Of a stretch of DNA of 64,000 nt, positions 11,657 through 61,745 are shown in pieces. This DNA comes from Diphasiastrum complanatum (taxonomy: Eukaryota; Streptophyta; Lycopodiopsida; Lycopodiales; Lycopodiaceae). The stretch lies in the NCBI GenBank assembly GCA_029204225.1, contig CM055097.1:27641192-27705191 (forward strand), read 5' to 3'. Positions within the stretch are counted from its first letter, which is position 1; every line of letters starts with the position of its first letter. The translations under genes and the position numbers were made by a program. Under the pieces are notes generated by a model. That model did not search any database and was not told where the DNA came from. It saw only the letters and a list, made by a program, of their open reading frames with translations.

Positions 11657-11988
<332 letters not shown>

Positions 11989-18210: not shown

Positions 18211-18220
18211 TAAAGGAGAG

Positions 18221-23155: not shown

Positions 23156-23321
<166 letters not shown>

Positions 23322-24610: not shown

Positions 24611-24718
<108 letters not shown>

Positions 24719-25661: not shown

Positions 25662-25708
<47 letters not shown>

Positions 25709-27363: not shown

Positions 27364-27453
<90 letters not shown>
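27364..27453. repeat. (GA)n microsatellite between SMAP1-like gene and copia LTR
   Basis: About 90 bp of GA. The LTR-homologous sequence at 27454 follows it directly. The second copy of that LTR sequence (34349) is also preceded by GA, so the tract probably belongs to the LTR. Confidence 0.95.
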
Positions 27454-27455
<2 letters not shown>

Positions 27456-27913
27456 AGAACTGTAGCCATTGCTTCAAAATCTGTAAGTAGGAATACGCGC
27501 TTATCAGTGCTACTGTATTGTGTTCCGATTCTCTCAATTTTACAGTTTTGCTACTGTTCAATTATTACGTTCTTGATTGAATAAAATTGTCTCTCTCACT
27601 CTCTTGCACACAAACACGGTTATCAGAGATAGAGGATCACATGGCTGTCCAAGATGCCTAATGCTTTGCAATCCTACTGTTACGATAGTCTCAAACTCCT
27701 ACTCTGATAACCCAAAAGGATAACAAGCTTTTGATTCCGTTCCCTAGTCAATCCACGTTTCTGAAATCACAGTTATTACTGTGTTCATAGTCTTCATTAT
27801 TTTTCTTATTGTTGGTAGAGACATCATTTACACCGTAATCGCCTCGCTTCAGTCATGACTCCGCTACAGTTGCAATCAATCTTAGACCAAGCATTTCACA
27901 TCATACACCAACA
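27454..27913 (+). mobile_element. 5' LTR (3' part) of copia family B
   Basis: Near-identical to 34349-34812. It ends catacaccaaca, giving a proper CA terminus, and is followed by a primer-binding site. The start expected from the 3' side (tgttgaaattcc) is not present upstream, so the LTR appears truncated at the GA tract next to the SMAP1-like gene. Confidence 0.8.
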
Positions 27914-27916
27914 AAA

Positions 27917-27933
27917 GTAGTATCAGAGCTTTG
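27917..27933 (+). other. Primer-binding site of copia family B
   Basis: The sequence tagtatcagagctttgg lies three bases after the LTR end. It matches the plant copia consensus for initiator Met-tRNA apart from its second base. Confidence 0.75.
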
Positions 27934-28008
27934 GTTCAGTGGATTACTAGAGTCCAGGATCTTTTTCCAAAAGTTGTTCTAAATTGTTTGTGTATAATTT
28001 TGATCACT

Positions 28009-29154: not shown

Positions 29155-29745
29155 GCCTATAGAGCCTTGTTCACTACCAACCGATGTACTATTTTAGATG
29201 AGAACTCAAAGAAAATCCTCTCTGCTTACAGAGAAAAAAATTTGTACATAATGAGTCACAATGTTGCACTTTCTGTGAGCTGTTCAGATGCTAATTTGTG
29301 GCATCAAAGATTAGGTCATTTAAACATGTGTTCAATCTTGTATATGCATCACAATAAAATGGTCAAGGACATGAATATAATTGCTGTCACCATAGCTAAT
29401 CAGAATATCTGTGACAATGGCCTCTAAGAAAACAACCTAGGACGAGATTTCCCAGAGGACAAGCCAAAAGGGCAAAGTCCATCTTGTCACTGATACGTAG
29501 TGACTTGTGTGGTCTGATGAGCGTACCTTCATTAGATCAAGCTCTGTATTCTATCACATTTATTGATGATTACTCCCGATTTGCCAGTGTAATGTTCATT
29601 AAGAATAAGTCAGAAGCATTTTGTTGCTTCAAAGACTTCAAGCAATAAGCTGAGAATCAAACTGGTCAGAGGATCAAGGCCCTACAGTCTGATTAAGTGG
29701 GAGAGTTCTTGTCAAATGAGTTGAAGGACTATATCCAAATGGAAA
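29155..29745 (+). pseudogene. Copia family B pre-integrase and integrase, partly deleted
   Basis: After the stop the frame resumes with LWHQRLGHLN (about 29298), the gag-pre-integrase HxxxH-type motif. Integrase core pieces follow: SDLCGLMSVPS, FIDDYSRFASVMF and LQSDxVGEFLSNELKDYI, with stop codons. The sequence then jumps at about 29742 directly into reverse transcriptase, so the last catalytic acidic residue and the integrase C-terminus are deleted. Confidence 0.85.
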
Positions 29746-31143
29746 GCTAGATTGGTGGTTAAAGGCTTTGAACAAGTATATGGGATAGACTACACTGAGA
29801 TCTTCAGTCCAGTAGTAAAACATCAGTCTATTCGTACTCTATTGGCTATATCTGCTAGAAAAGATCTAGATATTCACCAAATGGATGTCCAGACGACATT
29901 CCGACACGGATACATACAAGAAGATGTCTACATCTATCAACCAGAAGGTTACATCTCTCAAGGCAAGGAGCATCCACTACGCAAATTGCATACAACATTA
30001 TACAGTCTGAAGCAAGATCCAAGGGCCTGGTATGATAGAATAAAGCATTTCTTGTTGCAATACGACTTTACCTCATGCACCGTGATTCAAATGTGTATCT
30101 AAAACCAAAGGGGCCACCTATGTTATAATAGCATTATACATTGATGATTCTTTAATCATCAGCAATTCAAATCAGTGCTACAAGAAACTAAGTCCTTACT
30201 CTCATCAGAGTTCGAGATCACTGATTTAGGTCCAGTCCATTACCTACTTGGAATGGAGATTCACAGAGATCGCATGAGAAGAAGGATCACCATAAGCCAA
30301 CAATCCTACCTAATTAATGTACTTCGAAGATACGACATGGAGGATTGCAAGCTTGTAGACAATCCTATGAATCCAGGACGCAAGCTATCCAAAGACATGT
30401 GCCCCAGAACAAATGCAGATCAGCAAGAAATGCGCAATTACCCTTATCAGTCTATCATAGGTTCTCTCATGTACTCTATGATTTGCACATGACCTGATCT
30501 AGCATATGTTGTAAGCACGCTGTCGCAATTCATGTCCAATTCAGGCCTACAACACTAGAAAGCTCTACAAAGAGTTTTGAAGTACATTCAAGCCTCAAAG
30601 CACTATGCCTTGAGTTACAACGGAAATACATAAGCTGCACTCTCTTTGATTACCTATTCTGATTCAGACTGGGCAGGAGACGTAGATACCATAAAATCCA
30701 CCTCCGTCTACATTTGCTTTCTTGTAGGAGGACCCATTTCATGGAATAGCAGGAAGCAGAAATGCATTTCATTATCCTCTACGGAATCAGAATATGTCGT
30801 AGCTACATTAGCAGTGAAGGAGATTTTATGGCTTAGAAGACTACTACATGACCTGAGACTACTACTCTTAGAAGACTACTACATGTCCAACTATACTCCA
30901 GTGCGATAATCAGAGTTGTATAGCTCTGTCATTGAACCGATGAACTCACACAAGGACCAAACATATAGAGGTTCAACTTCATTTTCTCAGAGAGAAGGTT
31001 CAGAACAAAGACGTTGCACTAAGTTATTGTCACACAGACAGTATGTTGGCTGACATTCTGACAAAACCATTGTCAAGGGACAAACATTTTACTCTAGTAG
31101 AACTGTTAAATCTCAATTTGAGTCCAGATTCGTAGCAGCAAGC
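29746..31143 (+). pseudogene. Copia family B reverse transcriptase and RNase H
   Basis: Starts KARLVVKGFEQVYGIDYTE, with FSPVVKHQSIRTLLA, MDVQTTF and LKQDPRAWYD. The active site is YIDD (about 30141), after a frameshift. LGPVHYLLGMEI, SIIGSLMYSMICT and RNase H YSDSDWAGDVDT...ISWNSRKQK...LSSTESEYV (30650-30800) follow. A small tandem duplication of agaagactactacatg lies at about 30836-30890. The end motif MLADILTKPLS (about 31041-31073) precedes the polypurine tract. At least three stops. Confidence 0.9.
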
Positions 31144-31154: not shown

Positions 31155-34812
<3,658 letters not shown>

Positions 34813-37078: not shown

Positions 37079-37213
<135 letters not shown>

Positions 37214-37469
37214 GGGGCCCACCAAACCTGCATTTTGAAGCCTTCCCAGCCCTTCATAGCCAATTTTTCCTTCATAGAAATGCATTTTTATTTCAGCCTT
37301 TCCCAAGGAAAGTCTGATAGTTTGAATTTTTTTTAGAGCGCCCTTAAAATTTAGTGAAATCCTTGATAATGAGAGTCTCTCTTTTTTAACACCATTTACC
37401 ATGAAAGTATGTACCTGCCTTTCAAAATTGTTCAATTTATATCTTTTTCTCTCGTAAGTCCCATGTTAA

Positions 37470-41729: not shown

Positions 41730-42014
41730 CTAAGACTCAATGATATTACAACGCCTCATGAACTCACTTGAGTAGTTTACATACTTTGTCCAGAAAGGTC
41801 GAAGCTCTGGAATAGCTATATCTAACCAGGGTTTTGCATGGCCATTGTAATGAATCACCGCCGACTTTTGGACACTCTGAATATTCGTCTTGGCATAATA
41901 ACCCAAGCCTGTCATGTGCCAAGCAGGGTTTATTGAATGAATGTATCCTGAAAAGGCAATTAGTGATGGAGGAAGAGTACCAAACCGCCAAAGTGTGAGA
42001 TTATGTTTGAGGTT
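41730..42014 (-). CDS. GAUT13/14: GAUT13/14 coding exon 6
   Basis: 285 nt including the TAG stop, residues 438-531. Acceptor ctctgcag. It encodes WRFGTLPPSLIAF, WHMTGLGYYAKTNI, AVIHYNGHAKPWLDI and the family-type end RPFWTKYVNYSSEFMRRCNI. Confidence 0.95.
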   Translation of the reverse strand, partial: NLKHNLTLWRFGTLPPSLIAFSGYIHSINPAWHMTGLGYYAKTNIQSVQKSAVIHYNGHAKPWLDIAIPELRPFWTKYVNYSSEFMRRCNIIES

Positions 42015-45000
42015 CTGCAGAGAAAAGGCATGTCTCTGTCTTAGTTTAGCTGTTTTAATCGCAGTTATTACTTAATTTAACTGGAAATGTCAAGAAAGAG
42101 AGACTTGCTGTCATTTTGTTTTACTACATACATGATGGCAAGAAACAAAAACTCAATCGTCATTTTGTTTGAGTTACATATATGATGGCAAGAAAAAATG
42201 AATCAATGATCACTTTATTTTAATACATGAAATCATAAAAAAATTGGAGCTGTCTTTGCTATTCCAGAATTTTAGAAGGATGCATTTACCTCCTTCTGCC
42301 AGTAGTGATAGATATTGGTGATGTTTGTCTGCCTCCATGCCTGCAAATCAAAAATGTTCATACCATATGCCCATGCACATTGTTCTGGATCAAACGTTGC
42401 TTCAATAAGGGGGTGAAAAAAATTAAAGTAAGTTTTGAATCTTTTTGACATGTTCTTATCTTCTCCTCTACAAGTTTCAACTGCTCCATTGACATTTCCT
42501 TGAAGATCAATCTCCCAAAGCCCTGAGAGATCTTGCTGGACCACAACATCATCATCCAAGAAGACAATCTTGTGAAGGCTTGGGAACAACTGCATCCAAA
42601 ATCGGCAGTCAGAGAATAAGCACTGTGCATAGAAATAACATGAGGAAGCATTGTAACTGCACAGAGACTGAAGAAATCCTAAACAGAAGATGGGGCTGAT
42701 ACAAGCTAAAAAGCATGATGTTATTCTAGCTGTGTAGAAAACCCACTTGGTCAAACATCACTCAGCAAAAGTGTAGTTCAACAATTAAAGGATCTGGATG
42801 AGGCATATCCTCAATAAGTAAAACAGAAATGTGCTTCCTTACCTGCGGAAGATATATTCGAATATGGTTCAGTATGGATATGTATGTTGGACTTCGAGCT
42901 TGCAGTTTTGATGCTAACATTTTAGGGGATTCAATATGATCAGTTCCAACAGTATGATCACCATGATAAAACTTTCTAATGCCCTGGTGATCCTCCAGAG
43001 CCTCCAAGACAAAGATATTGTCCTTAGTCATCCAGTCAAACTGGTGCAAACCCTTTACTTCAACAATTGCAGGGGCTAATGAATTAAGAGCAAACCATGA
43101 GTGCATGGCTGCATATGTCTTTTTATCTGTGATAACATGAAACACAATTTTCTGTGGTTGTGCCGAATTCGCCACCGTCGAAGAAAGTACAACTGATGCT
43201 GCCAGAACATTGTCTGTAATAAGAACTAAATGGTGAAGAGAATTGTCAATCAAGCAACGTGCTAACTCTGGAGGGGGGAGTTCCTGCCTGGCACGGGCAT
43301 TAGAAGAATACTCAGCTGTCAATCTGAGTGAGAGACAGTGCATCCCCTTTGGGATACTGTTTGATGCATAGTGTCGATACAATGCTGCCTGAAGTTTTGC
43401 AGTCTGCAATTTTTGTTGCTGCAATTCTACCTACAACAGTTTCAAAGAGCAGAATTATTAAACACATCGTATCATATTGCATTAAACAAAGTAGGCTCAC
43501 CATCAAGCTTTTAAACAATTTCTTACTACTATATGGAACGAAACTCATGGTCAGAGCTACATCTTCAAGACATTATAATACATAGCCTACTTACAGTTGC
43601 CAAAGTCTTCAACTTAAAAGTTCGGCTTTTGAAAAGTTAGATGCACTGTATTTGCACATTTCAGCTTTCCCAGCTCAAAACACAGTTATGACAAACCAAT
43701 CTAAACTTGTAGATTGTGTTTTCAACTTGCATAGGAAGAGAGCAAAAGAAAGCAAAGGACGGAAATATCCGCATCAAAACTTCAAAAAAAGTGCTGCATA
43801 TGAAGCTAAGCCACAAGAGACAAGAAATGCAATAATCAGGATAAATTCACTTCGTAACACTCACTTTGCATTCCCAACATATATAACAGTCTATAAAGCT
43901 GAACCTTAGTTGCCCGTTCCGGAACGGGACTCCCAAAAAAAAAAAAAAAACGTTCTCTTTTACAAAGAAAAAAAAATCGTCACTGACAGGCCATAATAAT
44001 TCGACACTATTGCAATGATCCATCCTTGCAACTTCAAACCTGTATCAAGTCACAACTTAGATACTCCATGCAAAAAAGAAACAGCAATGCACTTCTTGAA
44101 CGATTCATATAATCATATTCCGTACCTTCATGTTGCTTCATACGTATGGATTATAGTGTGTTCCATATATACAGAATGTAATTTATCTATCTTTTAAAAT
44201 TGACAATTTTTTATTCAGGGCAACCCTGCTAATAGACCCTACTAACGAAGAGGTAAGGAATCTGCCAACAAGCAATCTCGTCAGCTGGATGCTATGTAGG
44301 TTTGGGGTTTAAGGCAGCTGGGCACGCTCTTTTAAGGTCTGAAACAAGTCGCTGTGATCCAAGCAAAGAAAGTTTGTTTACTTACAGCCAAAACAGCACA
44401 AAGGCTTCTGTGAGTAGTGGCAATTCCTCACTCCCACCACTAGGAGAACCCACAGATAGATCCACACTGTCCAAGATTCTCCTCTCAGTCATTTGTTCCA
44501 CCTCATTCACAATCTCCCTTGCCGGATTTAATGCATGCACCTGCTACTTGTATGCAATCTACAATGCAGTGATTACATATAATGATTGCACTACAACCAC
44601 TTGTATTTCATCTATTCCCTGTTCCAACCCACCCCTCTCTATTTTACGATTGCCCGAACTGAAAATTTATTGTGAGGATAGTTCTGAATCTCTTTTACCT
44701 TAACAAAAACACATTAGCTACAGTTGGATCCTAAGCCGGCCTAATACAGGTTTCAATTTCATATAACACCATATAGACAAGAGAAAGAGAGATATAGAAA
44801 AAAAAAAAAACAAAAACGTTCCGGCCCAGTACGTTCCGGAACGGATGGAACGGAACGTTCCGACCCATTTTGCTCGGAACGGGCTTCTAAGAACTGAACT
44901 GGCAATCCTGCATGGTTGGGCTAAGAATGGGATGCCCGTTGTACTGGTCACTTCACTACAAACCACAGCTTCTTGCAATTGAAGAAATATTTGAAACAGA

Positions 45001-48000
45001 ACAATGCTTCTTGCATTCAAAATGGCCACTGTTGACTTGATAGGAAAACCTAGCAAGTGCAAATTTGTCAAGTGGAGCAGAAATGACAAATAGTGAAGTA
45101 CCAATTTCATTATCTTTCCATATTTCATGTTATAACGCATATGCTCTCAAGAAGACGATTCACTGACCTAAGGAAGACTCTTCCCTGCCTTCATTGTTCT
45201 ATGTTATCAAGAAAGGCTACTCTGGAGTCTCCAACACAACAATGTACCATCTTATGTTCCTAAGAAACATCACTCATTTTCTTGTGCCTTCAAGGAACAC
45301 TATTCACTATCGTATGCTATCAAGGAAGACAGCATAATACCTTATGCTGTCACAAAGGTTATCTATGCTGATAATTTATCCTTTATCTGAACTTCACAGC
45401 TAACGCTCTACACAAGAAGGCAGCTTCTGTCAAGAATTAGGTTGAAAGCCTAATACTTATCGATGACCTGACTCTCTAAGTCTTTCTGGATGGACTTATC
45501 CAATCACTAATCAACATATTATTCTAAACTTCTTGAGAATAGCCACTCTTTGTTTGACCCCAATCCTCAAAGTTGTTGCTTTGGCTTTATCCTTTCAATT
45601 ACATGCAAATGCATGTGGAACAGTGACAGAGTCGATGCTAATGCAAAGTGGCCATGTTATTGCTTCTTCCCGAATCTTGCATAAAGGAATTATACTATTC
45701 TCAAATTGTCAAAGGACCACTGTCCTCAGACAAAAGAAGAGAAGGAACAAATGTGTGAGTACCCATATCATTCGATAATAAGTTCTCTTATGTACGCAAT
45801 GATAAGTACCAAACTAGACATAGCTTTTGCAGTTAGTATATGGCTAATCCTGGTATTATACATTGGAAAGCTTTTATAAGACTTATGATATACACTCAAG
45901 CTACTATGGACCAATGCATCTGTTATGGAGCAGTTGACAATGGCAAAATCAACATACTTAGTGGTTATTTGGATGCAAGTTGGGCAAGAGATGCAGACAC
46001 TTGTAGATCCACATCTGGATTTACATTCTTCCTCAACAATGGTCCAATCTCATGGAACAGTCGCAAGCAAACCTCAATAGCTCTATCGTCTACCGAATCA
46101 GAGTATATCATTGCCTCTCAAGCGACAAAGTAAGCAGTGTGGTTGAGAAACTTACTATCGGACATTTGTCTAAAATAGTATGCTTCGACAATTGCCTTTT
46201 GTGATAATCAAAGTGCAATTTCTTTATCTGCCAATCATAGATTTCATTTTAGGAGTAAGCACATTGATATTAAGTAGCATTACATCAGAATCAAAGTTCT
46301 CAATAAAGAGGTAAGCTTGGCGTACTGCCGAATGCAAGACAAGACACTAAGGCGCTGAGCGTGAATAAACAAATGATTTTGTGCAATGCTAAGTTTGATA
46401 ATCAAAGCTTTCATGGATGCAGATTAAGGAGGAGTGCTAGATTATTATCCTTATAATCCAATCTTTAATGTCATTCTTTATTTTTTGTCCATTCAGTTAT
46501 CTAGTTTCTACAGGTTTACTCGCGTTATCGCACAGTCTGCAAAAATACACAGGAATGGCTAACAACACACACTATCGAAGGTGTTCGAACTATCGAATGT
46601 TAACAGAACATGTTACCACTTGTTTTAAAGCTAACGACCTGCACTAATCATTGTTAGCGGCTAATTCCGTGTAACCTAATTGGATAAGTGACAGCGCAAT
46701 ATGGGTAAGTGTCAATTGCGATCTACAACTCATTATGGCTAACTGCCAATTGCGACCAGGCTAAATTCCTGCCCTAAGTGTCACTTTGGATAAGCCTATT
46801 CGGCATTCCTAACAAGTGTAAATACATGATCATATCTCATTTTAGAATTGCTCTCTCAGTTGATAAGATACAAAGTATTGCTAGAAGTGCTTACTGCTTA
46901 TTAGTGAAAGTGCATCAGACAGAGTCGATTAGATACTTAGAGTAAGATTCGAGTACGTGGTTGCATTCGCTATTGTTTTGTGCTTGCTATTCATCTGATT
47001 TGTACATGCTACTTATTGAATTGATTATACAGTTTTATTGCGTTCAGTATTATGTCAGAATGAATGAATACTTCTCTATTATATTGTAATCTGATTACGT
47101 TCTCTTACAGATTTGTTTGATGTATCGAATACTTTTGTATTTGAATATTCACTCTGTTATGTTTGTCTACGAAACACTGATTCTCATGATTTCACAGTTG
47201 GAATAAAGTAGAATCGAACGTGAAAATTGTCGCAATAATTTTGTTCAAATTTGATAGGCGTAGTCATGTATTAGAAGAAGTACCTTACTGTAGAGCTCGA
47301 TCAAAGCATGTATCGAATGCACTCTTTCTCTATCGAGTCTCCTTTCCTTAAATCCATGTCCAAATAATAAGGATTTGTAACGATCCCATACATGGGTATT
47401 AGGCCTCCACCAGTCAAGAATATTAGTTACGCCTCAGAATTCCATTCAAGGCTAATTTGGTACTTAATAACCTTGAGAGGGTCCAAGCATCCAAATAATG
47501 ACATGTGGAGCAATACATGGTGTGTGATGGTTTTATGCATGTTGATGACCATCCATAGTGACTAGGGTAATGCTTAGTATGTCAAGTTGTATAGAATGGG
47601 GAGGAGTCCATATTTGAGTGTACAATCTTGGTTGAGATCTTTGTGAATCTCTAGATGTCAATATCTTCAAATTGTTCAAGCTAGTCAAGATTGGTGGAAA
47701 ACTAGGACATAGATTGGTACCAAAACTTATCAAACCCAATCCAACTCTTAAGGTTAGAGTCATGGATCTGATTTTTTGGTATTTTGAATTAATTCTTGTG
47801 AGCCTTAAGAGTTGGAATCTAGGTAAGGTCCATTTTCCAAAGGAACTAGATTTTGGTGAAGATCGATTCTAAGATTTGTGATCCAAATCTTTTGTAGATA
47901 TTTCTAGTTTTTTTATTTGTTCAAATTATGCCTAATCTTTGTGATATTTGCAACATGATGGATCTTTGTCATCATTATGAGGCAATGTCGCCTCAGGTTT

Positions 48001-51000
48001 TTCTTAAGGAAGAGCAACTATTTTCAAGGAGGAGGATCTTTGGGATCAAGGATCTTCTCCAAGCATGGAAGGAACCAATAGCAAAAATGCTAGGATGGTG
48101 GAATGCTCTTCATGGCGTTTGGGGTCCATCAAGGAGATCTTATCATGGTTGTGGTGATCTTGCATCAAGTTCAGTTTTATTGGCTGATTTTCAAACTTTT
48201 GTACCTACAAATGATGTATTTTTTAAGCCAAAATCAGCCCTTGAAGTTATGTATAGTTTGTCATAGTTGAATCAAGATAATGTTTGAGGAGTGTGTGAAT
48301 CTTGAAATATGGCAAAATATAGCTTGAGTGCCCAAATTTATGTACATAATGTCATTTCACACATGTGAAGCCAGTTCCTACGTGTGAAACATAGGCATAG
48401 GTTAGCTTGTACATAATTCTAAGAGCCATTAAGGCAAATAGTCAAGTTTTTCAAGTTAGAATGAATTTCCTAGATTGTAGCTTTTTTTCAAGAGGGGCGA
48501 GAAATTAGCAATCAAAGGAGCTTGAATGTATGGAAGGCCACTAACTGATAGGACCTAGTTTCTACCACTAAACAAAAACCAGCCTCGACATCTATCAATT
48601 GATGTGTAGTTGGTAGCTTGTTTATGTGGTAGAAACTTGCTTGTCTATCTAAACTAATATCAATTGTGATTTATGATTAATCAAAGTAATCATTCTCTGT
48701 GGCTGTCAAGTAATTTTATGGATACCATCCAAGTCATAGTTGATTGTTCATGTGGTGGTACCAAGTGAGAGCTAGGTCCATCACGGGTCGTAACTTACGA
48801 GAGTACTAAGAGAATCGAAATGGATTCAATTCAAGGATTCAGAACAAGTGGAGGCAGATGCTTTTGAAGTACAATAGGTTTCTAACATGGGTGGTGATGC
48901 AGGAGATTTGGTGTTGACATTTGTAGATCCATTTCCTACTTATGTTTGTTATAATGGTGCTATGGTAACCAAAGAGTAATACAATTTCTTTATGGGTGTT
49001 GGCAGGATCCTTACATATTATGGTAGCTTGGAAGATATTCAAAGAGAACAAGGGAGTCAATCTTTAATTAGGGTTATGGCAAAGGTTAATTGTGTCCACA
49101 TAAGTTGATTCAGGGGGAGTCAAGTTGTTTGAGCCTAAGGAAGTCAAGGTATTGGATGGTGATATGTTGCACTCATGGTGGTCACACATATGCAGTAAAG
49201 GGACATGAAGGAAAAGCAAGACATTGGGAAGTCATATGAAATAGATTTTGAACAGGATCGACATACGAAGGAATCCTACATCATCACACAAAGTCCTACA
49301 TCAATTGATAAAGGCATTGAGATCATAGTTGATCATGGATTCTACATCAGAATTGAGGATCTTCATTACATGGGCATCATGGAGGATATAGATGCATACT
49401 TGTGCTATGCATAGTTTTGTTATTAACAATGCAAACATTAAGGGGGAGTGTTAGAGTTAATGTTCACATTGTTACCCCTAATATTGTTGTCTAGGATTGG
49501 GTCAAGCTTGTGTGCTAATTCTAGGGGCCTTTACCTATATTTAGTAAAGTCAACCTAGAATTTAGGCTCAAGTTCAAGATTCTAGTGCTTGATTTGGAGC
49601 CCATTAATTAGGCAATTGCTTTAAGGTTGTTTTTAGGCTGCTTTTGCTTTTGCTTTTTGGCATAGACTATTTCCATAAGCACGTAGTGCACCCTAGTCCA
49701 TTTGCAATGGGACATAGTTGGAGTACATCTCATCATTATGCTTCATCTTTGTTGTTTGTGTTCTCTTCCATGTATGTGTAGGGCTATTGTCTAACAACAA
49801 TAGGAATCTTGTCTTAAATAACTTGTATGATCAAGTCAATTTTCTGACAATGCAGGTACTGGGAACTGAGTAGATATGGATCTAGAATTCTTGCAAAGAT
49901 GATTCCTACTCACAACGATGGTTTTGTTAGGGATGGATTCACTGGGCAGCCAGGCCGTCTACTTCAATGGGCATAGAATTAGGGAGAAATCACTATGTAC
50001 ATTATGCACCATGCATAAATGGCATATAAGGAGCATTACATTTTCCAAATTCGAATATTGGAGGTATCCTATGTTCATTTCAAGATTTACCACTCTATTT
50101 GCCTACTTTGATCTGAAATCTAAACAACGATGTGGTCTTATGTTAGAGACATTCGACATTCTATAAAAATGTGATTGTAATGCACGCTCCAAATTGGACT
50201 AGTAGGAATACCCCATTTTGTAATGTTGGCCAATGTTTGAGGAACATATGTAGGAGATAACTACTTCCAATTCTAATTATGAGAATCATTACAAGTATTT
50301 CACTACCTGTTGCTTCAACTCCTGGTCCATGCCTACTTTTTATATTGATTCAATTGGACACTACAATTATTTGGTTAACAATTGACCTTATGACTTGGGC
50401 CTAAGAACCCAATATCTATTGCAACGTTCATATAATATTCTTTGGCATTTGACTAAGTGACTAGAACCTATATGCTAGTAGGTTGCCAAAGAACCCTAAT
50501 TAGGATCTAGTACCCTCTAAATATATTGATGTCACATCTAAGATAGTACCCAACAGAGCAAAGGACATATTCCACCATGTAGAGCCCACCCACAAAGTCT
50601 TAGACCATTAACCATGCATAGAGGGCACCAAATGGTTTGACATCCTTACTTCACCAAGTAACTGCAAACCAAATCTATAGACATATGTTCATAGTAGTTT
50701 CCAGAATCCATATCTTTGCACAAAGACCTGCATATTAGTCCTACCACTTCTCACAAGGTGAAGGGAGGTGAACGCTAGCACTAAATACCCTAGAAGCTTA
50801 TGAATATACCAAGGAACTTCATTTGTGACAGTTCACATTGAAGGCTTAGGCTACTTAGCATAGAGCAATGCAGGTATGATTTTGGCTGGCATATACTTTT
50901 TTTTCAAATGTCTATTCTTCCTACTATCACCTCGTCCACCCTATTTTATCTTATTTTTGCATGTTACTACTTATACCATTTTTGTTCATCTTGCTTTTCT

Positions 51001-54000
51001 TGAATGATAATGTCTTCATGTCCGTTTTTCCACTTTAATCTTTCTCTTTGATTTTACTTTCTTCTATATCGCCATGGACTCGGCTCACATCTTTTGAGAT
51101 TCAACCTCTGTAGGAAATAGAAGCCTAAGGATCCAGAATCTTAACTATTCAATCACACAAAGCATTCTCAAAAGAAAGAGAGAGATGGCTAGAAACCCTC
51201 TTGTAGAAACTCGTGGACAGCCAAGGAGAATAGTCAGTATTGCTTACAAAAGTGTCTCATACAAATGGGATGCACACATATATATAGTCCAAGATGACTA
51301 TCTAACTTCATGACTATTGGCTATCCAACTACTTGACTATTGACTATCCAACTTCCTATAAGTTACATAGAAAGAATAAGGTACCTCCAATATGTCAAGT
51401 TGGGGTACTTAATGTCACAATTAGGCCTAGTGGACCCACGAGTCCCTACCAAGTTAATTTAATACTAACTTAGCCAGCTCTAAGTTTAGTAGGCCTAATA
51501 TAATAAATGACCATGGTTACACAACTCTCGACCTTTTGGGTCAAAGTAACCTATGGTAATGTAAGCAGTTCCATTTACATTCCAACAATTTCCTAATATA
51601 CTTCTTTCTAAAAGTATCATGTTTTCTTCCAACCATTGACCTCTTTGTGATCTTAATCACCTTATTGATCTTATATAAAATTCTTCTTATGGTTCATCCC
51701 AATGTTTCACGAATCAGCGATTCGAACAAGGAATCGGGGTTCAAATCGGTCTGATTCGAATCAGAAACCTGTTCGAATCAGCCGATTCGAATCAGAAACC
51801 TGTTCGAATCGACCATCTAAAAAAAGTTTCAAATTGGCCCCAAAAGTGAAAAATGTTCGAATCGGCCGTATCAAACCGGTCAAATCTGCCGATTCGAACC
51901 GGCCCATAAACCATTGGTTCATCCATACATCTTATGTCTCATATTGAGTTGATTGAGGTTACCAATTTGGTTGCTAATATGGGTTTCTTGTCCCAAATAT
52001 CCATTCTCTTGCCTTCCACATACTTCTTGTTGCTGAAACGATAATGCTCTACATCTTCGAACTCATTGTAGGGTTGTGAATAGGAATCCTACAAAATATC
52101 TTTATCTCCTCCTCTTATTGATGACCTTTTTTACCAATTGGGTGGACACTGAATCTTTTTTTTCTTGCCATCAATTTTGCTTCATGAAGATGTCATCAAT
52201 TTTTCTTTGACAAATTTTCTGGTCTTCTATCCCAAACGAGCTTATTTCTTCGTCAACACTCTTGGTTTCCATTGTTCAATCCTATACTTTTAACACTCAT
52301 AATTGATTAAGTGTAACCAACTTTGCTATTACTATTTTGTCTTGTAAACCTAATCAATAAACCAACTTCTACAAAATAGTAGCATAGTGATTTCTTACAC
52401 TCTTTGAGATACCCTTTTTTAATGTTATTCTTGTTATGCTTCCCACCAAATCCATCATATCATATTAGCATTATTGCTTTGCCTCACTCATCTCTAAAGT
52501 ATAGGCGGTCATCATGAACAGCGTTTCCATTGTATATGCCCTTGATTTTGTTGGCCACATCTCAAATTACAGCTTCATTACTATTTTGATGCTTGCAACA
52601 TTTATTGCATCATAAAGACAATAATCTTGCTTCAAATGGTAAAGTGTAGCATTGCCATATCTTAGTAGACTGTTGCAAGGAATTTCCATGGGCTTTCGTT
52701 TAGGTTTACCTCATACACATCATCATGAGACTTCATGAAATGTGCTTGCATGGTTTGCTGAAGGCTAATTTAACATGAAGACAGAGCTATTTCGCAATAC
52801 ATGCCAATGTAAGGGCATCATATTTTTGAAGATCACTGAGGAACTTTGTTTCCTTTTGTAGTGATAATCGAGTCTTACTTTTGATTTTTGTTGAGTTTAG
52901 CTTTAATATTTGTCAATACTAATCCTACTCTCTACTGAGTTGTCTTACGAGTATCAGCCATAGTAGTACACCTTGGGAATATTCCCCATATTATTTGTCA
53001 AAAACTCTACACTTTGTGGAACAATCTCCCATGTAACATTGCACTTTACTTGCATATGGCTATGCAACTCATCATTTGGGTGAATGTATAAGTTATTGAA
53101 GATTTGTATCACTTAGTGTATTATGGCTTAACATGGAATACTGGATGGACTTTGGTACTGGTCGGGAGTTCTAGCACATAGGAAACTTCGCCTATTCTCC
53201 TAATAATGATAAACGGACCACAATACTGTTACGAGCCCGTAACCAGTGTTGAACCCTAGAGAACACAGGAGGTCAGATACCACAGTCAGGGACGTGTCCA
53301 AGATACACGTCCAACAGGGCAAGACAGTGTGAGTAGTGTGCCCCAACACGGTCCATAGCCATGGCGGGCCTAACACAGCCTAGGGACCCTGTCAGCAGGA
53401 TAGGGCCCCACGTTGGGTCCCGACGTGCAGTCGGCCACGTAAGAGCCACGTGGCCGACACCTGGCAGTATGCATGCTACCAGTCCTCACACTGGGCTAGG
53501 AGGGGCTTACTCCATATGAGGGAGTAGGCAAGGTTGGGTGGATCAGTTAGTATTGGCCCTATTGTGGTGTTTGGCTCTCAGATATGCTCAAATCTATGAT
53601 GATTCGGTGGGTAGGAAGAGGGCGAGACAACAGCCTCTTTCAAAGCAGCCTCCTCAGAAAGACTTTCAATTTTTAAAGAAAGAAAGAAGATAAAGTTAAG
53701 AGTGAAGCTCCTCAAAAACGCCCATCGCTCATACAACCCTTAAAACCAGAAGATTTTGAGAAAACCAAACAAGAACGTTTGTGCTTTGTGTGCATGGGCA
53801 AGGGACACACAGTCAGACAGTGTCCCAAGGGGCCTTTCACAAAAAAAGATAAGAAAGATAAATAACCAGTTCATCTTGTTTAGACTATAAGTTCCCAAGT
53901 GACTCGGCAGCTTCCGAGATCAAAGTGTTTCATGAAGACCATGAACACTGTTGCCAACTGACCTCTGCAATGCTAGCGAGACCCTTTAGCTTTGGGCCGC

Positions 54001-57000
54001 ATGACCTAGTACGTATGCATGGGAAAATTGGTAACCAGTCAGTCAAAGTCATGGCTGATGATGGGGCAACCCATAATTTCATCAACGACACCCTAGTTAA
54101 AAAACTCAGACTTCCAGAAGTACCTAGTCAGCATAGGTACATAGTTTCATTAGCTAAGGGTGAAGACAAGAAAATTTGGGAAACAATGGTAAGTAGTTTA
54201 AATCTTGGTATTCAGGGATATCAAGATGATATAAACTTTCAGATAATGCACCTGGATTGCACAGACATTGTTCTCGGTACAGCTTAGGACCTTCCCTCCA
54301 CAAAAATTATCAAGAGAACACCCTTAGCTTTCAGGATAAAGGCCGAGAGATCCGGTTGCATAGGGAGCATGATGTTCCCAACAGTCCTATGGTTTGCAGT
54401 TCAAAGCTCCGTCAGCAAATTGGGGATAGCAACCACTAGATACAATTAGCATGCACTTAGTATGATAAGACCAGTTTTTTACTGTGTTGTTAACACTATC
54501 AGACAGATTGATGATATGGGACATTGACCAGTAAGTGTTATCACAGAATTATTCAATCATTGTGTGTTCACTAGTACTGAAAAATAACTTGGTGGTATGG
54601 GACGCCGATTTACTTGAAGTACCAATGAGCACAAAAGATTGGATATTGTCTTATTCATGTTAATCTGATTAGATATCAGATATAGTTCAAACTCTCACGA
54701 ATAGAGCCGTTAGTCTAAAGATTTGTCAGGGATGACAAATGTTCTAAAGGGGGAGGGGAAGGAGGTTAGTCAGTGGAAACCCTTTTTCCATCAATTTGTA
54801 CCCTTAAGATAGGAAAGCATTTAGTGCTTAACTCAGTTTTCGATTTAAGATTAAGGCTAATTGTGACAGTCACAATTGTAGTCGAGCTTGGTGGTCGGAA
54901 AGCTCAATTGTCTATCAGATATAGACGAGGGAAATTCAGTACAGTAGCCCTTAGTAGAATGCCTATGATAAACGAGCTGAGTTTTACTCAGATTCGTAGT
55001 GAATTATTCGAGTCCTTGAGAGGGAAGTGCCAACATGATGCATTCTTCTCTACTATCTGGAACTCAGTCCAGAGCAGACAGTTACAGACTCCAAAACCAA
55101 TTCCCGGGGCTGGTGCTAGTTCATCCAAGAATACGGCAGCTTCCGTTGAGGATGATGAGTCCGAATATACATCAGATGATGTTGAGGACTCTGAGCTTGT
55201 ATTACCCAAGCAAACCCCAGTGGTTGAGGGTCAGTTGACTCAGGGTTTCAAATGGAAACAATATTCCATTCAGGATGAGTACTTGCTCTATAGAGATAGA
55301 GTATGTGTCCCCAATTCAGAGGATTATAGGCAGCTGGTCCTATATGAGTGTCATGGCAGTCCTAGTGAGGGGCACCCAGGCATTCAGAAGACCTATGAGC
55401 TTCTTCGTAGGCAGTTTTTCTGGCCTAGTATGAAAAAGGACGTCCAACAATATGTAAGCAGTTGCCAGAAATGTCAGGTAAATAAAGCAGAGCGTCTAAA
55501 GGCAGGAGGGTTGTTACAGCCCTTAGATATACCAGTTGGTAAGTGGGAGAGGATCTCCATGGATTTTATAGTAGGCCTGCCTAAAACCCAGAAGGGTAAT
55601 CATGCTATATGGGTCACAATTGACCGTCCGACCAAAATGGCTCACTTTATTCCGACCAAAACAACCGTTAGAGCTCCAGAGTTAGCGAGGTTGTTTGTAG
55701 ATAGGCTATTTAAATTGTACGGTCTACCTTCTGGCATAGTCAGCGACCGGGACAGCCTGTTGAGAATGCCACTTGGGAAAGAGGCAGTGTCCTTCACAAG
55801 ATTTTTCCAGACTGTCTTAGAGGACCAAGACGGTTCTTAAGGGGGAGGGAGTGTTACGAGCCCGTAACCAGTGCTGAACCCTAGAGAACACAGGAGGTCA
55901 GATACCACAATCAGGGACGTGTCCAGGGTACACGTCCAACAGGGCAAGACATTGTGAGTAGTGTGCCCCAACACGGTCCATAGCCATGGCGGGCCTAACA
56001 CAACCTAGGGACCATGTCAGCAGGATAGGGCCCCACGTTGGGTCCCGACGTGCAGTCGATCACGTCAGAGCCACATGGCCCACACCTGGCAGTATGCATG
56101 CTACCAGTCCTCACACTAGGCTAGTAGGGGCTTACTCCATATGAGGGAGTAGGCAAGGTTGGGTGGATCAGTTAGTATTGGCCCTACTGTGGTGTTAGGA
56201 TCTCTTACAAATACCTAGGAGACAACTTAGCACACACTCCTGTTTTGAGGGTTTTTGAATCAACTGGGACTCTAAGAAAGACTTTCTCACCGCCGAAGAA
56301 CTGAACATCCCGTCTATGCGGATTTGCATACTGCTTAGCTCGATCCTGGGCTTGCTTAATGCTACGCTTAGCATGTTCTACCATCTGGTTTAGGTCTTCT
56401 TAAACTTCACCTCTTTCTTGTTTGAACCCCACTACTGTGGGTGAGCATGGCTGAAAACCATACATCAGCATAATAGGACTGTATTCCGTAGCTGAATATT
56501 TGGTACTGTTGTAAGCAAACTCTAATATCGGAAAATATTCCTCCCAGTTAGTCTGCTTTTGTTGACATATGCACGAAGCATATTTCTAGCACCTGATTTG
56601 TGCTTTATGTTTGACCGTTGTCTTTGGATGGTCTGTAGTGCCCATATTTAGTTTGGTATGGAGATGATGGATACTGCCCTCCAAAAACCTCCATCAAACT
56701 TACTGTCCCGGTCGCTGACTATGCCGGAAGGGAGACCATATAATTTAAATAGCCCGTCTATAAACAACCTTGCTAACATTGGAGCTCTGGTTGTTTTGGT
56801 AGGAATATAGTGAGCCAGTTTGGTCAAACGGTCAATTGTAACCCATATAGCATCATGACCCTTCTGGTCTTAAACAGGCCTACTATAAAAATCCATGGAA
56901 ATACTTTCTCATTTACCAGCTGGTATCTCTAATGGCTGTAAAAACCCTCTTGCCTTTAGACGCTCTACTTTATTAATCTGCCACTTATGGCAACTAGTTA

Positions 57001-60000
57001 CATACTGTTGGACGTCCGACCAAAAGAATTGCCTACGAAGAAGCTCATAGGTCATATGAATTCCTAGGTGTCCCACACTAGGGCTGTCATGACATTCATA
57101 TAATATTTGGCAACTAAAATCCTCTAAGTCGAGAACACACATTCGGTTTCTGTAAAGTAGATACTCATCCTGAATGGAATATTGTTTCCATTTGAATCCT
57201 TGAGAACTGGATCCCTCAACTTCAGTGGTATGCTCAGGATCTACAGACTCAGAATCCTTAACACAAATCCTTAATGAAAGTTGTCATATACTTGGATGAA
57301 TCTTCCCCATGCCTAGGAACTGGTTCAGAAGTTTGTACATCTCTGTTCAAGACTGTCTTCCAGACTGTGGAGAAATACAGATCACTCTTGCATTTCCCCC
57401 TCAAGGATTCAAGTAACTCATTACAGAATTGGGTAAAACTCAACTCGTTTACCATTGGCATTCTGCTAAGAACATCTGCCACTTTCTTGAACTTTCCTCG
57501 TCTATATCTAATAGACAAGTCAAATTAGCTCTGCCCACCAAGCTTTTCGACCCCTTAGCTCAAGCTGATTACACAAATATCTAAGGCTTTCATGGTCAAT
57601 CAGGATCTCAAAGCTAGCACCATACAAATAATGCCGCCAAGTCTTAAGGCCATGAATAATACAAAAAAGTTCCTTTTCATAAGCACTATATCTGGTCTGA
57701 GCTGGTTCGAGCTTCTTACTTTTGAACGCTACCGGTCGTCTGTTTTGGTTCAACACTGCACCTAGCCGACACTTTTACTGGCACATATGCAACAACACGT
57801 TATTGAGTACATATAACGCTACGAGCCTTGGTAGGCGAGCAAGGCAGAGCATGTAAACCCTCAAGGTTCACCGCAATTCCTAGAGATTCCCCAAGGTTGT
57901 TGAGAGAGTATCTCAATGGATTTTATTACTAGGCTACCCAAGACCTCGAGTCAGCATGATTCGGTCATGGTAGTAGTGGATAGGTTGACCAAGATGGCTC
58001 ACTTTATTGCCACCTGGAAGACGGTGACAACCTCACAAGTTGCGAAATTGTTCATTGAAAATGTTGTGAAATTGTATGGAGATCCTAAGTCCATTGTCTC
58101 AAATAGGGATCCCCAATTCACAGGAACATTTTGGACTAATGTGTTGGCCAAGTTAGGACATAGTTGCGGATGAGTAGTAATGAGCGCACCCACAGACTGA
58201 TGGACAGACCAAGAAAGTCAACAAGTCCTTGAGGACATGCTTAGAGCATATTTCAGTGAGTCACAAACTGACTAGGTTAAATATTTATTGCTAGTTGAGT
58301 TTGCATAAAACGATAAGAAGCACGTGTCCACTAGTATGAGCCCATTTGAGCTCAATTATGGGTTTCCGCCAGCTAGTCCGGCTACCCTTGGCATTCCCCA
58401 TAAAGTACCTAGTGCTGCAGAGCTTTTGCCTCAGATGCAACAAAACTAGAGTTGGCACGATTAAGTCTTTCCAAGGCTCAAGACTGAGCAAAGGCTTATG
58501 TTCGTACAAACCCTACTTATAAGAAATGTGATGAAGTTGATATGGTCTTCTTGCTAGTGCCACCTAAGTCTAAGGTGCACATAGTCCTTGCACGATATTT
58601 CTTTTAGAGATGATGTTTCATTTTCATATCAGCTTTTAGACTCTAGTATTTCTGTTTTTTTTCTTTGCTATTTGGAGACATTATTACGCTCCCTTAGTTG
58701 TTACACACACTTGAGATGTATTAGTTTGTCTTATATCCCCTTTGGCATGAAAAAGACATTAAAAAAGCTCCTTCTTCTTCTATCTCTCTCCCCTTCCTAA
58801 AACCATCTTCCACCTCCCTCGATCTCTTTGAATACTTTTAAGGTAGTGATGTATTTTTTCCCGATAATTAGCTAGCAACAAGGGATAAATTTCTCCATGA
58901 AAGTTAGCAAAATAATGAACAAATTTTGTCTCACTAGGTTTTATAGTAGTTAAATCTACTTTTTTGCCACATATCTGTGGTTAATGGAAAAAAGCTTAAC
59001 CCTTTTTCTATGTTCCATATGTACACAACGAATGCTATGATTTAAATGCCATAGAAATTTCATTCCAACAGAAGTTCTAAGTTCTAACATGTATGTGAAC
59101 CTTGGCGAGCTTCACAAGCTTTCTAAAAAGAAGTGTTTAGAGGTTAAAAAACTTCAAACAGCCTCAGGAGACTTTATTCTTGAGCATAGCATTAAAACCT
59201 CGTTGTCTGAAATAATCTACCAAGTTTTCCAAGCACTCTATCCCAAATACCTCCAACATGGGAATCCCAAATGTGCCATGTGTTTTGCCACATAGGGGTA
59301 AGTTCAGTAATCAGGAGAACATGATGAAAGGTGAGTTTGGGGGAGAGTACATCGTTTGAATTGTGGCATCTGCTAACACAGATGTCCGGGTCCAACCTCA
59401 CATCCGGGATATTTGGAATTACAAGATCAAATCAATATGCTGCAAACATAATTGAACTCTCTTCTGACTTCTACTTCAACTCCTCAATCTTTAAGTTGAG
59501 AATGACACCACAACTACAGCAGAAAAATATTTAACAATTATTCAAAGTGATTCAACATCGAGATTAGAAGAAGGATCCAGAGCTTTTTAGAGATACCTAT
59601 CAAAAATTCAAAAATCAAAGGAGAGTTTCTTAAGACCATTACAAATCCGAATAAAGTATTACAAATTGAACTGTCTAGACTGAAGAACTATATATTTGAA
59701 GAAATGAGTCAAGTAATGGCATCCAAACAGATTTGATTGGATAGATTGGCATTTGTATCTGCATGAACCTGACGAATGGGATGCTGAGAGTAGCATCATT
59801 GATTCTGCCATCACACCCTCAATAATAGCAGCCCTCATAGTGTAGATGCATGTGTAATCATTTGTCAAGCTTGATTTGAAGGCGTTTTCTAGCAAGTTAT
59901 GCTTAAGTGCATTATTTGCAGCACAAATTAGGCCAACAGTCAAGTTGACCAGGTTTCAATCCAACTTTTAAAAACTCTAGGCATTTGAGAGACACAAATG

Positions 60001-60042
60001 TATGGCTGCAATTGTGTATCGAAAGGATTTGACATGTAGAAA

Positions 60043-60106
<64 letters not shown>

Positions 60107-61745
60107 GTCAAGAATACTTGGTTGTCACGCTAACCATTCGTTGGAAATTTGCAAAAGAAGGTGGTTTTCCAATGTCATCTTTTTGGATCTTTCCTGTGAG
60201 CAAGCTTAACACGGTGCTAGGTAACATAATCAGAGTGGAAACATCAAACATTTCTCAAAGAAGATGCACTATAGGTGAAGAGAACAAAATCTAGCCTAAT
60301 CAAAGCAGCCTAATTATATAAAAGTCCTTTCCTCACCTTGGGTATAGAGTTTGACTCCCTTAGGCACATACAAGATTCAAGGTGATGCTGAAGTGGCTAA
60401 CAACAAAATAGATTGCTCCAAAGAAATATGATAAACTGTATGTCAAGGTAAGGGACTAAGTTCTAACCATTGCTTTGAGTTTCAAAATAGATGTTGTCAC
60501 ATCATAACGATCCTTTTCCAACTCGGCAACAAAATCTCCAAAAGACTCTGGAATTTTTGTCCCTGTCGGAAGGCTCCCTTTCGATGCCTGGATGATAGCG
60601 GTGTAAATATCCTTCGTGTGAGCCTGATATTAAAATTCTGAGTCAGCAAATTATTTCTGGATGGGAAATGTAAATGCTAGTTTAAGCTATAAGAGTCATC
60701 AGAAGCTACATATAATCTCAAAAGAACAGCAATCTGCATAAATAGGTTAGAATGAAGGAAAGCTGCAACCAGAGCACATGATTTCCCACTCGAGTTTCGA
60801 AAATCCAAAAAATTTGAGGAAATCTTACAGAAGTGTCTTTTGTTCTCCAAGAAACTTTAGGTCCCAGTTTTCTGGCAAGACAATCTGCAAAAAGGATAAA
60901 TAAAGCAAAATTAACTGCTCATTTACCCCAACTGATATTCTTCTTAAGCCTACCTTATTACTATATAGTATAGGTAAATTCTAGTTTGAATTTAGTTAAA
61001 TTATCTCATCAGAAAAACGTCCTGACACTTCTCACATGATTTGTGCTGAAGAACTTTGCTGAAAATAACTTCCTACCTAAGATAACCAAAGACTTTAACC
61101 CAGAGAATATACCCAGGCCACTACATCTATCATTCTGTATACAAGTAAAATATATGGCATGCGTCATAGCAAAAGCACAAGACTGGCAAATATGTAAGTA
61201 ACTTCTGGCATGATTGACAATACTAATCATGAGAGAAGATTCAAGCATGAAAGCTGAATCTGAGGCCCATTCTAAAATGTTGTGCTGCCTTTTGCAGGTG
61301 ACTAGCAGTGATTAATACAGGTTGGATAGAAAGATGCGGGATCTAACTTCACTTTCCTTTCTTACAAAGAACTTTTGGAGGTTCCAAATTTGTGTCATTT
61401 AGTTTGATACTCTTCCACTTTGAAACGATAAGTTTCTGTCTAACCAAACTAATGCTTCGAATAACTCTCCAATTTGCTCAATCAACAAGATGATGCAAAA
61501 AATTAATGAGCTCCTATTGAGGCAGAGTACCTACATAGGGACGAGCAGGTGTTGACTTCTTCTAAAGTGATCAAAGCCGCTGCGATGAAGATAAATGGCA
61601 GCAAAAATGCTAGCAACAAGATTGTCCAAAATAGAGATCTGTGCGATTGATAACGGGCGATGACCTTGGAATTATAAGAATCTGAGATCCCATTCGTTGT
61701 AGAGATCGTGATGCGCTTCATGCTCGGTGAGAAATGTAATTGCAT
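41730..61745 (-). CDS. GAUT13/14: Galacturonosyltransferase, GAUT13/14-like (six coding exons)
   Basis: Spliced gene for a 531-residue GT8 enzyme. Coding exons on the minus strand: 61745-61535, 60884-60829, 60623-60468, 43430-42843, 42589-42290 and 42014-41730. The total is 1596 nt with stop; all introns are GT-AG and reading phase is kept. Family members are Golgi type II membrane proteins that add galacturonic acid to pectic homogalacturonan. The N-terminus MQLHFSPSMK and a membrane anchor (about residues 39-61, WTILLLAFLLPFIF) match the GAUT13/14 branch. The GT8 domain has IPKGMHCLSLRLTAEYSS (from about 164), the DxD metal site FLDDDVVVQQDL (D349-D351) and HYNGHAKPW (492-500). Length equals the Arabidopsis GAUT13/14 size. 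Intron 3 is 17.0 kb. Nothing in the assembled frame is broken, so I infer a functional gene. GAUT13 and GAUT14 cannot be told apart here. Confidence 0.93.
42290..42589 (-). CDS. GAUT13/14: GAUT13/14 coding exon 5
   Basis: 300 nt, residues 338-437. Acceptor tggatgcag, donor gtaaat. It contains the catalytic DDD (349-351), GNVNGAVETCRGED and CAWAYGMNIFDLQAWR. The usual NFSHPL of the family reads NFFHPL here, removing a potential N-glycosylation site. Confidence 0.95.
42843..43430 (-). CDS. GAUT13/14: GAUT13/14 coding exon 4
   Basis: 588 nt, residues 142-337. Acceptor gttgtag, donor gtaagg. It opens with VELQQQKLQTAKLQ, which joins exon 3 with the spacing expected for the family, then SIPKGMHCLSLRL and the first half of the GT8 domain (VVLSSTV, VFHVITDKKTYAAMHSWFAL, FDWMTKDN, SKLQARSPTYISILNHIRIY). 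Confidence 0.95.
43904..44892. mobile_element. Candidate non-autonomous element with GTTCCGGAAC-rich ends
   Basis: The left end ccttagttgcccgttccg (43904-43921) and right end cggaacgggcttctaaga (44875-44892) are inverted repeats with three mismatches. The pentamer ctgaa lies just outside each end and may be a target duplication. Inside each end is an A tract followed by acgtt, and the right end has a cluster of cgttccggaacg words. No protein was recognised in the interior. Confidence 0.45.
45710..46330 (+). pseudogene. Copia family A RNase H fragment in GAUT intron 3
   Basis: Very similar to 17460-18100: SIISSLMYAMISTKLDIAFA, then YLDASWARDADTCRSTSGFT, ISWNSRKQTSIALSSTESEY. The segment for SFLSQFM is deleted and a stop follows SQATK. 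It is the 3' end of a second family A copy. Confidence 0.88.
46435..47367 (+). mobile_element. 3' LTR of copia family A, diverged copy
   Basis: Begins tgctagatta after the purine run attaaggaggag. It shares phrases with the LTR at 18221-19151 (acagtctgcaaaaataca, ggttgcattcgctattg, ggcgtagtcatg). The 3' end is degraded and set approximately. Confidence 0.65.
47368..49439. other. LTR-like and unassigned sequence in GAUT intron 3
   Basis: The part 47370-47530 resembles the LTR at 36198. The 112-residue frame at 47928-48266 has no family motif I recognise. A purine run at 49439-49448 marks the 3' end of an element whose internal proteins are not recognisable. Confidence 0.45.
49449..49796 (+). 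mobile_element. LTR, 348 bp
   Basis: Follows the polypurine tract taagggggag. It begins tgttagagtt and ends attgtctaaca, so the termini form the inverted repeat tgttaga/tctaaca. No partner LTR in the window. Confidence 0.75.
49797..51108. other. Unassigned intronic sequence
   Basis: No domain or repeat structure recognised. The 82-residue frame at 49918-50166 has no known motif. Confidence 0.45.
51109..51587 (-). mobile_element. Candidate solo LTR, about 479 bp, minus orientation
   Basis: On the minus strand it starts tgttggaatg and ends atttcctaca, with TATA-like ctatatatatg inside. About three tandem copies of ttggatagtcaatagtca lie upstream of the TATA. Neither a primer-binding site nor a polypurine tract flanks it, and no target duplication was seen. 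Confidence 0.5.
51700..51905. repeat. Cluster of GATTCGAATC words
   Basis: The self-complementary word gattcgaatc and variants recur about eight times (gaatcagcgattcgaacaag, gttcgaatcagccgattcga). The cluster creates a spurious Arg/Ser-rich frame. It is comparable to the GTTCCGGAAC cluster near 44820. Confidence 0.65.
51906..53228. other. Unassigned intronic sequence
   Basis: AT-rich DNA without recognised coding or terminal repeats; it ends at a gypsy LTR. Confidence 0.45.
53229..53571 (+). mobile_element. 5' LTR copy of gypsy family C, 343 bp
   Basis: Starts tgttacgagcccgtaacc and matches 55852-56195 nearly throughout. No primer-binding site follows. It joins directly to gag coding sequence, implying a deletion of the leader and gag start. 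Confidence 0.85.
53590..54287 (+). pseudogene. Gypsy family C gag end and protease
   Basis: A zinc knuckle CFVCMGKGHTVRQC (CX2CX4HX4C) lies at about 53783-53824, followed by a stop. A protease frame then reads VMADDGATHNFIND, where the usual DSG is DDG. IVLGTA near 54270 corresponds to the protease end, then a stop. Confidence 0.85.
54288..54772. other. Degenerate interior of gypsy family C
   Basis: The reverse transcriptase expected here is absent. Only about 500 bp of unrecognised sequence separate protease from the RNase H tail, so more than 1 kb has been deleted. Confidence 0.6.
54850..55840 (+). pseudogene. Gypsy family C RNase H end and integrase
   Basis: Within a long open frame to 55840: RNase H end LSIRYRRGKFSTVALSRMP, an acidic linker, then the integrase HHCC zinc site (ECHGSPSEGHPGIQ...CQKCQ, about 55350-55480), SMDFIVGLPKT with the first catalytic Asp, and GIVSDRD with the second. 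Sequence then jumps to a short tail and the polypurine tract, so the catalytic Glu region is missing. Confidence 0.88.
55838..55851 (+). other. Polypurine tract of gypsy family C
   Basis: The sequence taagggggagggag immediately precedes the LTR start at 55852. Confidence 0.85.
55852..56195 (+). mobile_element. 3' LTR of gypsy family C, 344 bp
   Basis: Same sequence as 53229-53571 with few differences. Both copies stop matching at the same place (gtggtgtt), after which flanks differ. It abuts a minus-strand gypsy integrase of the same family. Confidence 0.85.
56196..57756 (-). pseudogene. Gypsy family C RNase H and integrase, opposite orientation
   Basis: Minus-strand frames give RNase H RRPVAFKSKKLEPAQTRYSA, KELFCIIHGLKTWRHYLYG and RYRRGKFKKVADVLSRMP, then integrase HDSPSVGHLGIH, SMDFYSRP, IWVTIDRLTKLAHYIPTKTT and GIVSDRDSKF. 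It is closely related to 54850-55840 but keeps sequence past the second Asp. Stops and shifts disrupt it. Confidence 0.88.
57900..58545 (+). pseudogene. Gypsy integrase core fragment, another family
   Basis: Reads SMDFITRLPKT-like MDFITRLPKTSSQHDSVMVV, DRLTKMAHFIAT, SNRDPQFTGTFW and later LEDMLRAYF and SPFELNYGFPPASPATLG, with stops in between. The catalytic Glu segment is degenerate. It lies back to back with the minus-strand gypsy remnant. Confidence 0.85.
58560..60048. other. Unassigned intronic sequence near GAUT exon 3
   Basis: No recognised domain. The minus-strand frame at 59659-59943 has no known motif. Confidence 0.45.
60049..60104. repeat. (CT)n microsatellite in GAUT intron 3
   Basis: About 56 bp of CT on the plus strand, so GA in the transcript, 364 bp downstream of exon 3 in the gene's direction. 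Confidence 0.97.
60468..60623 (-). CDS. GAUT13/14: GAUT13/14 coding exon 3
   Basis: 156 nt, residues 90-141. Acceptor taatatcag, donor gttaga. It encodes the stem: LPTGTKIPESFGDFVAELEK and YDVTTSILKLKAM, which align with the family motif IPDGLKLPNSF and the following helix. It ends in phase 0 before the giant intron. Confidence 0.9.
60829..60884 (-). CDS. GAUT13/14: GAUT13/14 coding exon 2
   Basis: 56 nt, residues 71-89, too short to stand out as an open frame. Acceptor tttttgcag, donor gtaaga. It reads CLARKLGPKV with the split Tyr codon completed from exon 1, matching the family CLGRRIGP segment in the stem region. Confidence 0.88.
61535..61745 (-). CDS. GAUT13/14: GAUT13/14 coding exon 1
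   Basis: 211 nt, residues 1-70 plus one base. It encodes the cytosolic tail and the membrane anchor. The donor is gtaggt after CCCTAT. An alternative donor four bases later (gtactc) gives a phase that fails with exon 2. The start is the ATG of MQLHFSPSMK, as in GAUT13/14. Confidence 0.93.

Follow-up and report, generated by a model that had tools for sequence, protein, structure and literature searches.

The window analysed here is a stretch of 64,000 nucleotides from the lycopod Diphasiastrum complanatum (C6:27641192-27705191, taken from contig CM055097.1 of the GenBank assembly GCA_029204225.1, which comprises 1.74 Gb in 5,176 contigs), and its main subject is a gene of the GT8/GAUT family whose exons are parted into two groups by a third intron of about 17 kb. 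The six exons lie on the minus strand and join in phase into 1596 coding bases, corresponding to 531 residues and a stop codon. All five introns show GT-AG borders, and their lengths, from intron 1 to intron 5, are 650, 205, 17,037, 253 and 275 bp. Coordinates are those of the window, and the parts of the gene are given in the order of transcription:

61535-61745, minus strand: exon 1, coding part 211 bp, holding the start codon and coding for the most hydrophobic segment of the protein; unchanged in the haplotig, with counterparts in the copies on C8 and C14
60829-60884, minus strand: exon 2, 56 bp
60468-60623, minus strand: exon 3, 156 bp, coding for the stretch between anchor and catalytic domain
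43431-60467, minus strand: intron 3, 17,037 bp, phase 0, GT-AG
42843-43430, minus strand: exon 4, 588 bp
42290-42589, minus strand: exon 5, 300 bp, coding for the DDD motif (residue 349); both paralogues have one codon more
41730-42014, minus strand: exon 6, 285 bp; codes for HYNGHAKPW (residue 492) and contains the stop codon

A sequence-only reading of this DNA had proposed the same model, with six in-phase exons, 531 residues, intact splice sites and a third intron of around 17 kb; it was reproduced on recomputation, and the same model was obtained on a second contig, the haplotig C4015. If intron 3 were retained, the frame would end three codons past exon 3, and the enzyme therefore needs splicing across intron 3.

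The predicted protein contains a complete GT8 domain (Pfam PF01501) at residues 173-504, with an E value of 8e-71 and 239 bits against a curated cut-off of 24.3, covering positions 1-253 of the 253 of the profile. The triplet DDD at residue 349 and HYNGHAKPW at residue 492 are, we assume, the metal-binding DXD motif and the HxxGxxKPW-type motif of GT8 enzymes, respectively; GLG is also present. The strongest hydrophobic segment is N-terminal (19-residue spans above 1.6 start at residues 35-47, with a best mean of 2.85), and a weaker hydrophobic span (1.76, starting at residues 209-210) falls inside the GT8 domain. Proteins of the GAUT subfamily have a type-II membrane topology, with an N-terminal anchor and a stem ahead of the GT8 domain, and the predicted positions of the hydrophobic segment and of the GT8 domain in the window protein fit this anchor, stem and catalytic layout. 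Four distinct related chains, which we take to be bacterial, were recovered by a sequence search of the PDB at E <= 0.001; they are named as GT8-type transferases, and none is named GAUT. The likeness to Arabidopsis GAUT13 and GAUT14 consists of the GT8 family assignment (Pfam) and of a predicted N-terminal anchor, stem and catalytic layout. The N-terminus of the window protein presumably resembles that of Arabidopsis GAUT14, and GAUT13/14 is a putative sub-name based on this resemblance. In a literature search over titles and abstract openings, no mention of long introns in GAUT genes was met with, which is not a claim of absence from the literature. Demonstrated roles of GAUT13 and GAUT14 have been described, namely in the synthesis of homogalacturonan in pollen and in the growth of pollen tubes (PMC7533613).

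Contig C4015 (38 kb) carries six of the six exons in the same order as the window gene, and looks like the other haplotype of the locus. The coding sequences of both differ at 2 of 1596 bases, both at third positions, and the encoded proteins are identical. Intron 3 measures 16,845 bp in C4015 and shows 67 mismatches to the window copy in 16,808 aligned intron bases; about 195 bp of the window copy (52616-52809) are missing from it. Because C4015 carries all six exons in order, a misassembly or contig-join error is an unlikely source of the 17 kb gap. As an observation on the assembly itself, C4015, C1515, C505 and C411 appear to be unpurged haplotigs, and gene counts taken from it would be inflated.

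The genome was also searched with the window protein, 81 of the 85 first-look candidates being scored, a scope that applies to every result of this search. Matches to exon 1 were found at C6 and C4015, at C8 and C1515, and at C14, each locus having its own exons 4-6. Elsewhere the N-terminal 110 residues gave a single match, at chance level (C21, E 2.4), and no exon-1 match was seen at C505, a second copy of exons 4-6 of C14. Another locus as owner of exons 1-3, which the sequence-only reading had named as the finding that would count against a single gene, was thus not encountered; its claim of one complete GAUT-type gene with a long intron loaded with transposable elements (TEs) draws support from the haplotig, from two paralogues, from the similar divergence of both gene halves and from this search. 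The paralogue on C8, its haplotig C1515 and the paralogue on C14 have six of six exons each, with phases as in the window gene, and their third introns measure 13,421, 13,422 and 5,920 bp, respectively. The other twelve introns of the three genes range from 142 to 650 bp, intron 3 being the sole long one in each. Of the residues aligned with the window protein, 464 of 531 are identical in C8 and 384 of 530 in C14. Separately, exon 1 of C8 and C1515 (L013-L016) has ACG at the position of the first ATG, which is ATG in the window copy and in C14; translation of the C8 copy might use Met9 as its start, or an in-frame ATG farther upstream.

Divergence between the window and C8 copies was estimated by the Nei-Gojobori method, and the values carry no error bars. 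Exons 1-3 show a synonymous divergence (dS) of 0.345, and exons 4-6 one of 0.375; since dS is similar in both halves, these were probably duplicated together. The ratio of non-synonymous to synonymous divergence (dN/dS) is 0.337 for exons 1-3, 0.110 for exons 4-6 and 0.164 overall, and values below 1 in both halves speak for constraint on each of them, weaker in exons 1-3.

Regarding the content of intron 3, the whole intron was compared with itself, with the rest of the window and with the retrieved related loci, and genome-wide repeat searches covered 43431-45700, 48300-50300 and 53227-53579, the best 40 candidates being scored in each. The following features were delimited (no strand assigned unless given):

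43431-43901: acceptor-side part of intron 3, 471 bp; only the haplotig matched among the 40 candidates scored; alignable at about 61% to the acceptor side of C8 intron 3
43902-44892: dispersed repeat, with pieces at dozens of places in the genome
45700-47349: repeat with relatives at window 17463-19094 and within loci L016 (C8) and L022 (C14), as compared with the retrieved loci only
48613-49851: dispersed repeat, with copies on many contigs, mostly 74-83% identical
53227-56209, plus strand: delimited long terminal repeat (LTR) retroelement, 2,983 bp long and running antisense to the gene, with aspartyl-protease and integrase zinc-binding domains
56703-57774, minus strand: second retroelement fragment, in the orientation of the gene, with RNase H and integrase zinc-binding domains
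60048-60104: (CT)n microsatellite, located 363 bp into intron 3 from its donor end

These five repeat blocks and the microsatellite account for 8,002 of 17,037 bp, or 47% of the intron. The delimited element is flanked by AATAC at either end (read by eye), its two LTRs share 95% identity over 353 bp, and its LTR occurs at 36 places besides the gene locus and the haplotig, among the best 40 of 2,547 first-look candidates. The fragment at 56703-57774 is, we infer, of Ty3 type. The intron contains 81 open frames of 55 codons or more, in which 14 Pfam families were matched at E 0.01, in one or two frames each; most are retroelement domains, rve and zinc knuckles among them, and the weak matches to Spore_III_AE (0.0049), DUF3915 (0.00028) and Atrophin-1 (0.00083) were judged to be due to chance. 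Retroelement sequence in both orientations, as proposed from the letters alone, is hence present (53227-56209 on the plus strand, 56703-57774 on the minus strand). The figure of about a dozen retroelement pieces given in the same proposal was not confirmed: retroelement domains, in opposite orientations, were found in two of the five repeat blocks. Further repeats may exist in the intron, because only three stretches of it were searched genome-wide.

Taken together, the locus very probably holds a single complete, most likely working nuclear GT8/GAUT-family gene, the third intron of which would have been enlarged by piecemeal TE insertion. At the level of sequence, the exon structure and its phases, the co-location of the exons on two haplotypes, the constraint on both halves and the repeat nature of about half of the intron are established. 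The ordinary spliceosome would join the six exons into one mRNA, in which exons 1-3 would provide the N-terminal anchor and stem, and exons 4-6 the GT8 catalytic domain, of a type-II Golgi membrane protein. Its product would add galacturonic acid to pectin, with both the activity and the Golgi location suggested by what is known of the family. TEs would have been inserted piecemeal at a tolerated site, leaving the splice sites undamaged and giving rise to the long intron 3, a route of growth that would likewise follow from family knowledge.

Several observations weigh against this interpretation. The dN/dS of exons 1-3 is three times that of exons 4-6, and only the share of intron 3 given above could be assigned to repeats. 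Relative to the two paralogues, which agree with each other at these positions, exon 5 of the window copy lacks one codon (Val) and carries Phe in place of Ser in the YFNFSHP segment. Both changes are present on both haplotypes and might weaken the enzyme. From the 68 differences between the window and C8 copies, 19 are derived in the window copy, 20 in C8 and 29 are not assignable to either; the window copy is therefore not decaying faster than C8.

Being derived, the codon loss and the Ser-to-Phe change in exon 5 also favour an alternative in which the gene is intact and would be largely silenced, or its transcripts ended early, by heterochromatin of intron 3 (IBM2-type), the window copy being a weakening duplicate of the C8 copy. 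Rice and Arabidopsis have provided examples of such an effect of introns loaded with TEs, and full-length transcripts of plant genes with such introns can require a dedicated factor, IBM2; the same source states that many rice genes with heterochromatic introns are transcribed (PMC7145194). A further point in favour of this alternative is that AATAAA is found in intron 3 13 times on the gene strand and 7 times on the opposite one, although the intron has about as many A (5192) as T (5152); 13 of 20 is nevertheless within chance. The transcription of those rice genes, the overall dN/dS of 0.164, the identity of the proteins on both haplotypes, the intactness of every splice site and the loss of the first ATG in the C8 copy, not in the window copy, make this alternative quite improbable. 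The 17 kb of repeat-rich DNA between exon 3 and exon 4 would also suit two partial genes, with exons 1-3 and 4-6 as unrelated remnants juxtaposed by duplication, insertion or misassembly. This is hardly credible in view of the identical exon order on both haplotypes, of two further paralogues in which a long intron 3 divides the same exons, of the similar dS of both halves, and of the genome search, in which no other locus was seen as a donor of exons 1-3 among the 81 of 85 candidates scored.

With regard to how the intron of this single gene grew, intron 3 of the window copy resembles that of C8 over about 450 bp at the acceptor end (61%) and over 30-40 bp at the donor end; elsewhere only short or repeat-like matches are found between them. 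Intron 3 of C14 showed no similarity to that of the window copy or of C8 at E 0.01. Either each copy grew separately after duplication, or an older long intron has been turned over. A 74-bp match between window 43905-43976 and the C8 intron was considered as a relic of an ancestral intron and rejected, the stretch belonging to a dispersed repeat. Growth of the C8 intron by acceptor-side tandem duplication was also considered: its long internal copies are 60-64% identical, and the acceptor piece of the window copy is closest to one of them over 82 bases. Stretches adjoining these copies, however, proved to match an old dispersed repeat, whose other places in the genome are mostly 65-74% identical. 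The three long intron 3 sequences share almost no sequence, and the chance of all three genes being long at the same one of five random intron places is 1 in 25. This coincidence lends weak support to the idea that intron length as such may be maintained or advantageous at the intron 3 site, for instance through clade-wide timing or heterochromatin-based control, which we regard as unlikely; descent from an already long intron would explain the coincidence too. The three paralogues with a shared long intron constitute a small natural comparison for intron growth.

The sequence-only reading had implied that an intron of this length is rare. As a control within the genome, the gaps between neighbouring exon matches were measured in five genes from two further conserved families, PGI and V-ATPase subunit a. 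Duplicates (contigs C411 and C2014, and the additional copy on C13 near 7.12 Mb), a short C18 match (615-642) and stray matches were left out, and the 35 of 39 neighbour gaps with at most 35 unseen residues between the matches were kept. Nine of these 35 gaps exceed 5 kb and three exceed 10 kb (10,313, 12,319 and 13,522 bp), none reaching 17 kb; they are upper bounds for single introns, since a gap can hide a small unseen exon. Among other plants, Ceratopteris has introns with a mean length of 5,555 bp, and 17,745 of them are above 10 kb, the latter number being 25,269 in one figure legend of that paper (PMC9477723). The mean in Brainea is 4,939 bp, and its gene structures are described as largely similar to those of further fern species (PMC12868710). 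On average, introns are 11.46 times as long in Alsophila as in Arabidopsis (PMC9122828), and Ginkgo has 16,939 introns above 20 kb (PMC5118899). The many long introns of Ceratopteris and Ginkgo are attributed in those texts to TEs, with exon lengths conserved (PMC9477723; PMC5118899), and no difference in kind from them is seen in the present gene, the assembly here being smaller. The implied rarity is not borne out by the control gaps and the Ceratopteris counts: a TE-loaded intron 3 of 17 kb is ordinary for a large plant genome of this kind, the phenomenon is well documented, and nothing seen here calls for a new mechanism. The locus is nonetheless a clean example of a short gene hidden in a repeat-rich plant genome, of which a gene caller limited to short introns would make two partial genes.

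As for the remainder of the 64-kb window, a tRNA scan returned none. Nine GA/CT dinucleotide arrays, up to 348 bp long, are distributed along it, the last being the microsatellite of intron 3:

5847-5920, 11660-11985, 23158-23319, 24613-24714, 25663-25706, 27364-27453, 34001-34348, 37081-37214 and 60048-60104: GA/CT arrays

Copia-type retroelement frames (RVT_2, gag, Pol_BBD) lie downstream of the gene at 16832-17281, 19477-19893, 27886-29151 and 29725-30099. Finally, two near-identical open-frame pairs at 7700-8448 and 9593-10359 are inverted with respect to each other and about 1.1 kb apart, and by eye they look like retroelement protease regions.

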